Source: Dorea sp. AF36-15AT
GTDB lineage: Bacteria > Bacillota > Clostridia > Lachnospirales > Lachnospiraceae
Length of the DNA: 63,185 bases
Assembly: GCF_003477705.1 (NCBI RefSeq)
Contig: NZ_QUDV01000009.1
Coordinates: 1-63,185 of the forward strand
Reading direction: 5' to 3'
Under the pieces are notes generated by a model, which was not told where the DNA came from, ran no database searches, and saw only the letters and a program-made list of their open reading frames with translations. Numbering within the stretch: the first letter of the stretch is position 1; every line of letters begins with the position of its first letter. The position numbers were made by a program, and so were the translations under genes. Positions 1 through 3,333 of this stretch are shown here, piece after piece.

Positions 1-740
1 ATATTTTCCAGCCATTTTACGATACCATTCGTAAGTAAGATCCCCGCTCCGATTCCGACTGGGATTCCAATGAGTCCTTCCAGTATTCCTTCCCAGTAAA
101 CCACACAAATCCTTTGAAATTTACTCGCCCCGATACTTCCCAATGTTCCCAGATATCTTAGTTTTTCAAACGTAGAGATGGAATAGGCATTGTAAATCAG
201 CACACAGCCCATAAGCATCACCATTGTAACTATAACATTGATGATTCCGCCCACGCTCATACTGGTTTCGTCATTTAGTCCATAGTATTCTAAAAGTTCT
301 ATATGATAGGTAATATTGTATTTTCCCGTTTCACGATAAGGAAGGCGCCGCCACTCTTCCTCCGGAAGCTGTTCCATGCCGATCTTTTTGCCGATTTTCT
401 GTGTTCTGACAAACATACGCCAACTGACGTTTTTCATTTCAGCAGCCACACACAAACCTGCATCCGGTTCGCAGTCTTCGCATTCCGTTTCCGATACATT
501 ACATAGCTTTTTATTCTCTTTCAGGCTTTCATACTGTTCCTGATCCAAATCATGGAAGATCAAATGCCAGCTTCCCTGGTCTTCCCGGATGCTCTCCCGG
601 ATCATTCCCATCAGAGTATTGGCAAAGAGCGAAATCGTTGTGAGAATGATCATCGTGCATGCAATTCCAAGGATGGTAGCTCTGGTACGCTTTTTATTCT
701 TTTTCAGATAACGTAAGGTTAGTTTAAAAATAATTCCCAT
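1..740 (-). CDS. FtsX-like ABC transporter permease (C-terminus beyond window)
   Basis: About 246 N-terminal residues are visible; the gene runs off the left edge. The translation opens MGIIFKLTLRYLKKNKKRTR, followed by a membrane segment at about residues 22-42, a polar external domain of about 120 residues, a second membrane segment at about 170-190 (GGIINVIVTMVMLMGCVLIY) and the start of a third. This is the MacB/FtsX permease plan, used with an ATPase to move lipids or peptides or to act in antimicrobial peptide sensing and resistance. A clear RBS (GGAGGAG) precedes the ATG. It lies downstream of the peptide gene in the same direction, separated by a hairpin, so it may belong to the signalling cassette as exporter or immunity function. 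The ATPase is not in view; substrate is unknown. Confidence 0.85.
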   Translation of the reverse strand, partial: MGIIFKLTLRYLKKNKKRTRATILGIACTMIILTTISLFANTLMGMIRESIREDQGSWHLIFHDLDQEQYESLKENKKLCNVSETECEDCEPDAGLCVAAEMKNVSWRMFVRTQKIGKKIGMEQLPEEEWRRLPYRETGKYNITYHIELLEYYGLNDETSMSVGGIINVIVTMVMLMGCVLIYNAYSISTFEKLRYLGTLGSIGASKFQRICVVYWEGILEGLIGIPVGIGAGILLTNGIVKWLEN

Positions 741-765
741 ATCCGCTCCTCCATTCGTTAGCGAA

Positions 766-794
766 AAGAACCATGACACAATGTCATGGATCTT
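766..794 (-). terminator. Hairpin between peptide gene and ABC permease
   Basis: A perfect 8-bp inverted repeat (CCATGACA / TGTCATGG, 3-nt loop) extends through one mismatch by four more pairs (AAGA / TCTT). On the minus strand it is followed by a short T-rich stretch (TTCTTTTCG). It could be a leaky terminator or RNA-processing site that lowers permease expression relative to the peptide. Confidence 0.55.
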
Positions 795-801
795 CTGATA
801 A

Positions 802-945
802 CTATTTTCCATACTCAAAGTTGTGAATATTCTTATAATGCAATATTATCTTATTCTGCGATGTTGTTTTAAAGCTACAATACTTACAGGTATATGTTGT
901 ACCACCCACAACTTTTTTCGTTTCTTTGGCAGTCAATTTTCTCAT
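802..945 (-). CDS. Gly-Gly leader peptide with C2H2 zinc-finger-like mature part (47 aa)
   Basis: A 47-residue ORF. The first 15 residues, MRKLTAKETKKVVGG, resemble the double-glycine leaders of bacteriocin and peptide pheromone precursors, which C39-peptidase ABC exporters cut after GG. The predicted 32-residue mature part carries Cys-X2-Cys-X12-His-X4-His (CKYC ... LHYKNIH), exactly the spacing of a C2H2 zinc finger, then a short tail NFEYGK. The RBS AGGAG lies 7 nt before the ATG and starts right at the stop codon of the upstream kinase gene, so the two are probably translationally coupled. The position beside an AgrC/ComD-like kinase and a LytTR regulator suggests a secreted signal or bacteriocin. 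Function is inferred; I do not recognise this peptide family. Confidence 0.75.
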   Translation of the reverse strand: MRKLTAKETKKVVGGTTYTCKYCSFKTTSQNKIILHYKNIHNFEYGK

Positions 946-957
946 TTTTTTGCTCCT

Positions 958-2274
958 TTACATATTATCGTAAAAACTAACCATCACGCAATGCCTGTCT
1001 TCTAACGTCTCCTGAATCAGGTCGCCGTCATGACGTTCCACGATTCGTTCTACGCTTTTCATTCCATATCCATGCACAGACGAATTTGCCGCACCGCTGA
1101 TTAGTCTTTTTTTCAAAAATAACGGTCGTTTCACAACATTATTACTGATTTTTATTAAAGTCATATCCATCCGCTTTTTTATTTCAACACGTATCCAGTT
1201 GCCTTGTTCATCTGCTTCTTCACAGTTCTCAATCGCATGATCAATCAGATTTCCAAACAGTATGCTTTGTTCTGCTTCTGTCAGGCCACCGATCGACACC
1301 ATCTCAGTCTCTATATCAAAACGTATTTCTCTTTCTTCCGCCTTTTGTTTCTTCTGTGTCAATATAAAATCAAGAAAGTAATTTCCGGTCCATACTACAC
1401 CTTTCACCTCAAGATATTCCTGATCAAGTTCATTCAAATAATCTTCTATTCGCTGCCATTCCCCCTTTTGAACCATCATACGCAGCCCCAGCAGGTGATG
1501 TCTTATATCATGTACAGCCCGCCAGCTATTTTCCGTACTCTCTAACAAAGATTGGTATCTTTGTTCCAAAATACTGTCATGTAATTCCAGTATCTTCTGG
1601 TCTTTCGCCATAAGGCGATTTTTCAGGAAAAAAAGTACAATGATTGTGGCAATCACCAATACGCCAAGAAGCGAAAAGCCACCATCCAACCCGTTCATGG
1701 ATATTTCTCCTATAGCCATTTCAACCAGTTTTTTCTGATACCTAAGTATCAAAAGAGATATAATTATGTCAATTAACACAAAATATCCTGTATACTCTTC
1801 ATTAATCTTCCACTTATATTTTATGATCAATATCGCTAACCATATAAGAATTATTCGTGATAATGTAAAGATAACAATTTGTTCCAAAGATACTGCATTC
1901 AAAAAAACTCTTGGCAAAAACTTCTCTCCCAACAATGTCATACTAAAAAAAGCTATTATGAAATCCAACAATGTAAGCACTCCATAATACAGCCAAACAT
2001 AGCTGAATATAAACAAATATCCTTTTTTCCTTATGACAAATATAACAAGACAAAATAAAATGACCTCCACCAGGAACATAGTTCTCGAAAAGAACCATAA
2101 ACGCCTGTTTGCAGTCAGTAAAACAGAAATAAACAGAGAACTCACTACTAGAATACCTTTATAACATCTGTTCATCTTTTTTCTGTCAAAAATGGTATAT
2201 AACATCAAATAATAGCCTGTTATAACTTCCACCAAAGAAACTACGAACAACAGGATAAAACATACACTCCCCAC
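958..2274 (-). CDS. AgrC/ComD-like membrane sensor histidine kinase
   Basis: 438 residues, GTG start with GGAGGAG 8 nt upstream. The N-terminal half (to about residue 230) has six or seven hydrophobic segments, as in peptide-pheromone receptors of the HPK10/GHKL class. The phospho-acceptor box is VHDIRHHLLGLR near residue 255. The ATPase domain has an N-box variant (LFGNLIDHAIENCEE, where families usually read N-A-I-E-A) and a G-box HGYGMKSVERIVERHDG. It starts 2 nt after the regulator stop codon and ends at the peptide RBS, so the three genes are one operon. The likely ligand is the product of the adjacent peptide gene; this is inference from context. Confidence 0.9.
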   Translation of the reverse strand: MGSVCFILLFVVSLVEVITGYYLMLYTIFDRKKMNRCYKGILVVSSLFISVLLTANRRLWFFSRTMFLVEVILFCLVIFVIRKKGYLFIFSYVWLYYGVLTLLDFIIAFFSMTLLGEKFLPRVFLNAVSLEQIVIFTLSRIILIWLAILIIKYKWKINEEYTGYFVLIDIIISLLILRYQKKLVEMAIGEISMNGLDGGFSLLGVLVIATIIVLFFLKNRLMAKDQKILELHDSILEQRYQSLLESTENSWRAVHDIRHHLLGLRMMVQKGEWQRIEDYLNELDQEYLEVKGVVWTGNYFLDFILTQKKQKAEEREIRFDIETEMVSIGGLTEAEQSILFGNLIDHAIENCEEADEQGNWIRVEIKKRMDMTLIKISNNVVKRPLFLKKRLISGAANSSVHGYGMKSVERIVERHDGDLIQETLEDRHCVMVSFYDNM

Positions 2275-2276
2275 AG

Positions 2277-2990
2277 CTATTGCTCCTCCCAGTATTTCCG
2301 AATATTTTCTTTTACTTTTTTGATCCTTGCATGACTTGCTTCAACAGCATCTCTATTGCTCAGATAAATCACATTATCCCTGACTTTCATAATATGCCTT
2401 AAATTAACCACACTGCTCCTATCGACTATTACAAATTCATCACTCATTAATTTTTCCAAAACATTCTCAATACTGATTCGTTCACGTACTTCACCTTTCA
2501 CGGTAAAAAAGCTCGTATACTTTGTTCCTTTCGCTTTTTGTATATAGATAATATCATCCTGACACATTTTCACTCTCTGTGTATCCGAACCTATATAGCA
2601 ATACTTTATTGAATGATTCCGCACAATCTCAATCAGTCTCTCTATTATTTCCGGCAGTCTTTCTTCAACATCCTCTTTTAGAATATACTGGTATGCTTCC
2701 ATACGATAGCTTTCAATTGCATATTCCACATAAGCCGTAAGAAAAATAATATAAATATTCGGATCACGATCGCGCGCTTTTTTGCCCATTTCAATACCGT
2801 TTATCTCCGGCATATCCACATCAGAAATCAAAATCTGATACCTGGTTGTTTCAAATGCCACTAGGAAATTCTCCGCTTTCTCATACGTGTCTATATGTAC
2901 ATCTTTGAATTCCCCCGACAGATTTAACAAAATTTCACGGATATTTTCCAAGACGCTTTTCTCATTATCCACTATTGCAATATTTATCAA
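2277..2990 (-). CDS. LytTR-family response regulator
   Basis: A receiver domain (INIAIVDNEKSV, phospho-acceptor Asp57 in ISDVDMPEING, Lys in LKED) followed by a LytTR DNA-binding domain (about residues 130-235, with IIYIQKAKGTKYTSFFT and VDRSSVVNLRHI). I place the start at the TTG at 2990, preceded by GGAGGG, giving 237 residues. A longer reading to an ATG at 3044 adds 18 residues that do not fit the receiver fold. It is the partner of the downstream AgrC-like kinase (2-nt gap). LytTR regulators bind pairs of short direct repeats two helix turns apart; such a pair lies upstream at 3105-3133, so autoactivation is likely. Confidence 0.9.
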   Translation of the reverse strand: MINIAIVDNEKSVLENIREILLNLSGEFKDVHIDTYEKAENFLVAFETTRYQILISDVDMPEINGIEMGKKARDRDPNIYIIFLTAYVEYAIESYRMEAYQYILKEDVEERLPEIIERLIEIVRNHSIKYCYIGSDTQRVKMCQDDIIYIQKAKGTKYTSFFTVKGEVRERISIENVLEKLMSDEFVIVDRSSVVNLRHIMKVRDNVIYLSNRDAVEASHARIKKVKENIRKYWEEQ

Positions 2991-3067: not shown

Positions 3068-3133
3068 ATTATAACATAATTTTATCATCGCTTCGAAATA
3101 TTGACCATGAATTAGATATTTTCTGCCCATGAA
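3068..3133 (-). promoter_or_regulatory. Candidate LytTR operator repeats and promoter
   Basis: On the minus strand two copies of TTCATGG (3127-3133 and 3105-3111) are exactly 22 bp apart, the period typical of LytTR sites. They are followed by a perfect -10 TATAAT (3068-3073) with no good -35 box. A weak -35 plus upstream direct repeats is the usual layout of AgrA/ComE-activated promoters. AGAAAATAT is also repeated here. The rest of 3134-3333 shows no gene. Confidence 0.55.
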
Positions 3134-3333
3134 TATTTTCTGGCAGACAAATTCCCAAAACATAAATCATCATCAAAAAATAATCTTCGTAAGTATCAAA
3201 AAACACATTCCAAGATTGTATGCGATTGTCAAGGTCCTGATCCAACTCAAACTTTTACTCATCGCAATACAAAAAAATCTGCCACTTCACGATTTCTCAA
3301 TCGTAAAGCAACAGATCCTTTTCTTTTTATATT

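Follow-up and report, generated by a model that had tools for sequence, protein, structure and literature searches.

The window analysed here is a 63,185-nucleotide stretch of contig NZ_QUDV01000009.1 of Dorea sp. AF36-15AT (Lachnospiraceae), and it encodes, on the minus strand, a 47-residue peptide that joins a Gly-Gly leader to a core resembling a classical C2H2 zinc finger. Judging from the peptide itself and its gene context, its most likely role is that of an inducer, a bacteriocin or both, secreted and folded by zinc, in an autoregulated LytTR operon. Lanthionines, disulfides or backbone rings are the known means by which secreted bacterial peptides keep their shape. A zinc-held C2H2 finger would, if true, be a different solution and would make a peptide signal or weapon depend on how much zinc is available. 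If it is both secreted and zinc-binding, this product of a gut bacterium would be unusual among bacterial signals and bacteriocins in being folded by metal and, being very small and easy to synthesise, it lends itself to testing.

The leader and the zinc-finger-like core

The first-pass annotation had placed the gene at 802..945 and described a Gly-Gly leader followed by a 32-residue mature part with the spacing Cys-X2-Cys-X12-His-X4-His. The position is correct, the minus strand is added here, and both the spacing and the length are exact in the translation, which reads MRKLTAKETKKVVGG (leader) and then TTYTCKYCSFKTTSQNKIILHYKNIHNFEYGK (core). The open reading frame (ORF) is genuine.

802..945, minus strand: gene of the 47-residue precursor, with Gly-Gly leader and C2H2 zinc-finger-like core (ATG at 945..943, stop at 804..802)
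901..945, minus strand: leader MRKLTAKETKKVVGG, 15 residues, with L at -12, E at -8, V at -4 and GG at -2/-1 (sequence, and consensus from an excerpt of PMC6363468)
805..900, minus strand: predicted mature peptide, 32 residues, C-X2-C-X12-H-X4-H (sequence, Pfam, PDB, AlphaFold2 with Foldseek)

The recognition sequence of Gly-Gly leaders is given in the excerpt of PMC6363468 as L(-12)-X3-E(-8)-L(-7). The window leader carries L(-12), E(-8) and GG, in agreement with the claimed leader type, and has Thr, not L, at -7. No bacteriocin or Gly-Gly family model of NCBIfam was matched by the peptide at E<=1, and the only two NCBIfam matches at this threshold are weak and unrelated. A Nif11-type leader peptide was rejected, as no Nif11 or NHLP model of Pfam or NCBIfam was matched at E<=1.

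Within the core, the ligand positions are Cys20, Cys23, His36 and His41, and the hydrophobic positions read from the sequence are Y18, F25, I33 and L35, in keeping with C-X2-4-C-X12-H-X3-5-H; the aromatic residue usually found four residues past the second Cys is Thr here, and F stands two residues past it, as in the ZFY finger. A Pfam C2H2 model matched the core at E 3.4e-5, under its curated cut-off, and all 30 PDB sequence matches at E<=10 are finger proteins, the best being the isolated 30-residue ZFY finger 1klr (E 0.006), with 5znf at E 0.022. AlphaFold2, given a 4-row alignment, returned a beta-beta-alpha fold with a predicted local distance difference test score (pLDDT) of 88.1, and nearly all of the 50 Foldseek matches listed for this model are C2H2 fingers. 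Chance spacing was rejected: the strict pattern C-X2-C-X12-H-X3-5-H arose in 56 of 400,000 shuffles of the 32 core residues, and three shuffles with Cys and His fixed found no finger in the PDB search. Pfam, PDB, the Cys/His-fixed shuffles and Foldseek hence support a classical C2H2 likeness that appears to go beyond the Cys/His spacing; the original observation holds and is stronger than first thought, and its interpretation is plausible and partly supported.

The ZFY finger (1klr, 5znf) shares with the core the arrangement Y-X-C-X2-C-X-F/Y...H-X4-H and a similar length, and its PDB entries are stand-alone 30-residue nuclear magnetic resonance structures; however, it was excised from a eukaryotic protein, whereas the window peptide is the whole product of a bacterial gene past the Gly-Gly leader. 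Host mimicry, considered for the closeness of the core to animal fingers, was set aside, that similarity being all that stands behind it.

Relatives were sought in 5.8 billion proteins, where one search gave three and a profile search six, six distinct ones in total. The first-pass annotation had held that relatives lacking the Cys/His residues or GG would speak against its reading; both are kept in P0003 (98% identical, a cluster of 47 sequences), P0007 (98% identical), P0008 (96% identical) and P0004. The last is the same as the window peptide through position 29, after which 9 of 16 residues differ and Lys32, Leu35, His36, Asn39, Ile40, His41 and Asn42 are kept; since Cys20 and Cys23 fall in the identical stretch, their conservation in P0004 is weakly informative on constraint. 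The P0004 core matched a ZHX1 chain in the PDB at 1.3e-5, as the sum of two stretches that singly score 0.88 and 1.4, and the Pfam ZHX finger at 1.4e-4, under the cut-off. P0006, which is the peptide of genome G148 and bears the NCBI name 'C2H2-type zinc finger protein', has a core with 110 PDB matches at E<=10; among the 60 listed nearly all are finger proteins, the best reaching E 4.7e-15 over a multi-finger chain, and one clear non-finger match is an antifreeze protein. The upstream reading frame common to P0004, P0007 and P0008 differs from the end of the window kinase, and the gene therefore has another neighbour in other strains or copies. P0005 is a 29-residue protein on 5 contigs that ends precisely at the point where P0004 and the window peptide diverge; as a guess, both variants may coexist in a sample and break assemblies there.

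Beyond these relatives, a plasmid and phage search gave no relative of the peptide, and neither the 59 pattern matches in GTDB r220 species genomes nor the 87 in IMG/VR included a confirmed one. A looser scan of 141 sequences (1.59 Mb), which asked for GG at most 15 residues before a Cys-Cys-His-His/Cys pattern in stop-to-stop frames below 130 residues, gave four matches: the window gene, two Gly-Gly peptides in locus L111 and an apparently spurious one in L053. With the peptide alone as query, weak matches (E<=1) were present in 181 of 397 family genomes, and among 30 loci taken from them the Gly-Gly finger pattern occurs only in L111 of G148. Profiles of the Gly-Gly finger design, run on 397 and 383 genomes (overlapping sets), returned only G148 below E 1e-4, by construction, because they included G148's own peptides. 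Finger peptides of the window kind are rare in the genomes searched, since pattern and profile searches gave G148 alone.

The operon, its promoter and the precursor slot

The genes run along the minus strand in the order LytTR regulator, GHKL kinase, peptide and FtsX-like permease, and the peptide start codon lies 12 bases past the stop of the kinase gene. The coupling to an AgrC-like kinase and a LytTR regulator, also claimed at first, is supported: Pfam confirms the domains of both proteins, and the LytTR-type repeats and the precursor slot add weight to the link. The probable TTG start of the regulator at 2990 was taken from GGAGGGAG, read upstream.

953..957, minus strand: ribosome-binding site AGGAG, 5' of the peptide ATG (sequence)
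958..2274, minus strand: GHKL (AgrC-like) histidine kinase, PF14501 (Pfam), with 8 hydrophobic peaks, two of them overlapping, ahead of the ATPase domain
2277..2990, minus strand: LytTR response regulator, receiver and LytTR domains (Pfam on 2277-2987)
3..743, minus strand: FtsX-like permease, cut by the window edge (Pfam), in the position of LanM in relatives
3102..3112, minus strand: LytTR-type direct repeat, promoter-proximal copy ATTCATGGTCA (repeat comparison)
3124..3134, minus strand: LytTR-type direct repeat, distal copy ATTCATGGGCA, 22 bp start to start
3068..3073, minus strand: candidate -10 box TATAAT inside ATGTTATAAT, common to the lanthipeptide-type operons of G001 and G300

With the window kinase as query, 12 of 15 genomes matched in one search and 19 of 397 in another at E<=1e-30, and 21 kinase loci were read, namely all 20 places listed from the 397-genome search and the best G004 locus from the 15-genome search. 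A LanA-like ORF lies directly past the kinase in 8 of the 21 (L173, L178-L184), at kinase identities to the window kinase from 43% down to 24%; these precursors are 47-50 residues long, carry a short GD, GN or GE motif close to their start, and end in CC, or in L184 in CCN. The remaining 13 loci are without such a precursor and include G004 (L174), the fourth-best match (L194) and partial, contig-edge or distant kinases. LanM (DUF4135 with LANC_like) stands next to the precursor in all five loci tested (L195, L198, L196, L200, L201), and the G001 contig stops just past the precursor. Three lanthipeptide-like precursors tested against Pfam and four tested against NCBIfam had no model, the G001 precursor matching neither library. 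Because LanA-like ORFs past the kinase (8/21) are joined by LanM (5/5), the window kinase is, on this comparison, akin to kinases of class II lanthipeptide clusters, and the zinc-finger gene occupies the putative precursor slot. Within the window no LanM lies beside the peptide and an FtsX permease is there instead; an ordinary lanthipeptide precursor was rejected, LanM not being adjacent. Separately, in L199:4545-12681 (G333) the LanM-type gene past the precursor, read by eye and not by profile, seems interrupted by inserted mobile-element-like genes.

LytTR sites are described in an excerpt of PMC4847170 as two 9-11-nt repeats with 11-13-nt spacers, and an excerpt of PMC6193735 places such repeats just ahead of the -35 in autoregulated LytTR operons. 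Upstream of the window regulator, 11-nt repeats at a 22-bp step are followed by ATGTTATAAT, a layout common to the window, G001 and G300; the G300 promoter matches that of the window down to TTCATGG, and in G001 the repeats precede an extra ORF lying ahead of the regulator. A consensus promoter scan skipped the TATAAT at 3068..3073, which has no -35 match, and gave 3107..3079 instead. Repeat pairs agreeing at 10 or 11 of 11 positions with a spacing of 20-22 bp are present in 6 of 11 upstream regions: the window, L204, L195, L197, L200 and L201, the last two from operons so alike that they amount to one observation. No more than 6 of 300 shuffles did as well for any of these regions, and no such pair occurs in the other five (L198, L199, two of L196, L202). 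Since the repeats and ATGTTATAAT recur in G001 and G300, the comparison supports a control of the window operon shared with lanthipeptide operons. A GHKL kinase, a LytTR regulator and direct repeats before the promoter, which together mark a LytTR/GHKL operon, are all present in the window.

ComCDE, BlpCHR and PlnABCD are LytTR/GHKL three-component peptide systems. The window is like these systems in that the gene of a Gly-Gly peptide adjoins those of an AgrC-like GHKL kinase and a LytTR regulator, and in the direct repeats ahead of the promoter (excerpts of PMC4847170 and PMC6193735); unlike them, it has a C2H2-finger-like core, a promoter resembling those of lanthipeptide clusters and a signalling role that is predicted. 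With class II LanA-LanM clusters of Lachnospiraceae it has in common a homologous kinase (43% to 24%), the slot and, in G001 and G300, the promoter layout, whereas it lacks an adjacent LanM and a C-terminal CC and has the finger-like core and the FtsX permease.

Zinc-module-like cores of other Gly-Gly peptides

Gly-Gly leaders ahead of apparent zinc-finger or zinc-ribbon-like cores also occur elsewhere in Lachnospiraceae. At L171:11908-13463 in G148, four Gly-Gly peptides lie close together: a further two with C2H2-like cores, and two whose cores are Cys/His or Cys4. A fifth, at L172:6412-6663, stands beside a His_kinase and receiver/Trans_reg_C-like pair, of a type differing from the window pair. 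Many Gly-Gly peptides of G263 and G719, several paralogues per genome, have cores resembling Cys4 zinc ribbons; one G263 peptide has weak Pfam zinc-ribbon and Nif11 matches, under the cut-offs. Of 397 genomes searched with a profile of G263 and G148 peptides, 16 gave a match at E<=1e-4, G263 and G148 themselves by construction. Two C-X2-4-C pairs past GG were found, in 30 loci read, in eight genomes (G263, G148, G719, G272, G204, G166, G340 and G027), and most Gly-Gly peptides listed outside G263, G719, G148 and G027 are without such a pair of motifs. Nif11-like Gly-Gly multigene families with Cys4-like cores were also noted at L177 (G263:C6:110000-118000), L234-L236, L250 and L260.

The Nif11-like Gly-Gly peptides of Lachnospiraceae (LahA type; P0006, G148, G263, G719) resemble the window peptide in their C2H2-like or Cys4 zinc-ribbon-like cores; their leaders are longer, whereas the window leader is short and ComC-like. 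No literature joining Gly-Gly leaders with zinc-finger or zinc-ribbon modules was found among open-licence texts, judged by titles and abstract openings. A broader idea, to be regarded as doubtful, is that Gly-Gly secretion in Lachnospiraceae releases small self-folding zinc modules (C2H2 in the window and G148; Cys4 ribbons in G263, G719, G272 and others), with Zn(II) replacing lanthionine or disulfide crosslinks, and that the window finger is a LytTR quorum-sensing autoinducer whose signalling depends on free gut zinc. The set of Gly-Gly peptides with zinc-ribbon-like cores makes the idea testable across many genes together.

Proposed mechanism and alternatives

The regulator, kinase and peptide would be expressed from one operon, its layout and repeats being those of LytTR control. 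The Gly-Gly leader would be removed on export by a C39-type exporter encoded elsewhere and, outside the cell, the 32-mer would bind Zn(II) and take on the beta-beta-alpha fold of a C2H2 finger, as its similarity to known fingers suggests. The multi-spanning GHKL kinase may then sense the folded peptide and its LytTR partner may activate the operon, closing a positive loop of the kind to which the repeats and the homologous systems point. Because a lanthipeptide-like precursor fills the same slot in several kinase relatives, the zinc finger would here stand in for a thioether-locked peptide in the role of inducer and perhaps of bacteriocin, with the FtsX permease as the likely immunity. The chances are even that the secreted peptide is the cognate product, probably the inducer, of the adjoining kinase-regulator pair. 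In homologous systems one peptide can act as both signal and bacteriocin, and the two roles cannot be told apart from sequence alone.

Several results weigh against the secreted, zinc-folded peptide. A simple motif scan found no C39-like exporter motif within the window, and C39 was found in one of five other genomes tested (G263, and not in G001, G148, G300 or G047, whose completeness is not established), the same search being positive in 8 of 14 control genomes. Export is hence the weakest link. Moreover, the Pfam cut-offs were missed by the core (best PF23224, 23.7 bits vs 25; PF00096, 13.3 vs 25.2), and AlphaFold2 run from the single sequence gave no beta-beta-alpha fold (pLDDT 63). The metal-binding secreted signal or bacteriocin first proposed hence keeps the finger-like core, the leader and the kinase/regulator coupling on its side and the missing exporter in the window against it, and zinc sensing by the peptide found no direct support.

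FtsX-type permeases are a common immunity type, and the one next to the peptide would also suit a bacteriocin or a peptide that handles metal by scavenging or delivering zinc; the pair would then control production of the peptide, which would not itself be the signal. The precursors in the slot of the relatives are presumably bacteriocins, and the paralogues of G263 and G719 look like products, not signals. However, a Gly-Gly pattern scan gave only one such gene in the window, and the kinase-adjacent position and the variable second half also suit a signal, so that this reading is unlikely.

The peptide could instead be the precursor of a lanthipeptide or of another ribosomally synthesised and post-translationally modified peptide; an enzyme whose gene lies outside the window would then crosslink Cys and Thr/Ser, and the finger pattern would be incidental. 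This reading draws on the lanthipeptide-like precursors and LanM of the kinase relatives, on the Thr before both Cys of the core and on the window ending within the next gene. It is very unlikely: the FtsX permease lies past the window peptide, whereas in the relatives tested LanM comes straight after the precursor; the two variants have both His and L35 in common, although thioether chemistry has no need for them; the C2H2 similarity exceeds the Cys/His spacing in the PDB search and the shuffles; and the precursors of the relatives end in CC or CCN, unlike the window core.

Zinc fingers usually act inside cells, and a cytoplasmic mini finger that binds nucleic acid or protein, for instance as a regulator of the kinase, with its Gly-Gly site left unprocessed, would fit the C39 results and the NCBI name of P0006. 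This role is just as improbable, given that Gly-Gly with L(-12), E(-8) and V(-4) stands immediately ahead of the finger, that the gene lies past an AgrC-like kinase in the precursor slot, and that G148, G263 and others join GG-ending leaders to zinc-module-like cores in multigene families.

Lastly, a hairpin was noted between the peptide and permease genes.

771..789, minus strand: hairpin, possible attenuator, in the peptide/permease intergenic region (z -2.8; 3 of 200 shuffles fold equally well)

It consists of a perfect 8-bp stem followed by a T-rich stretch.
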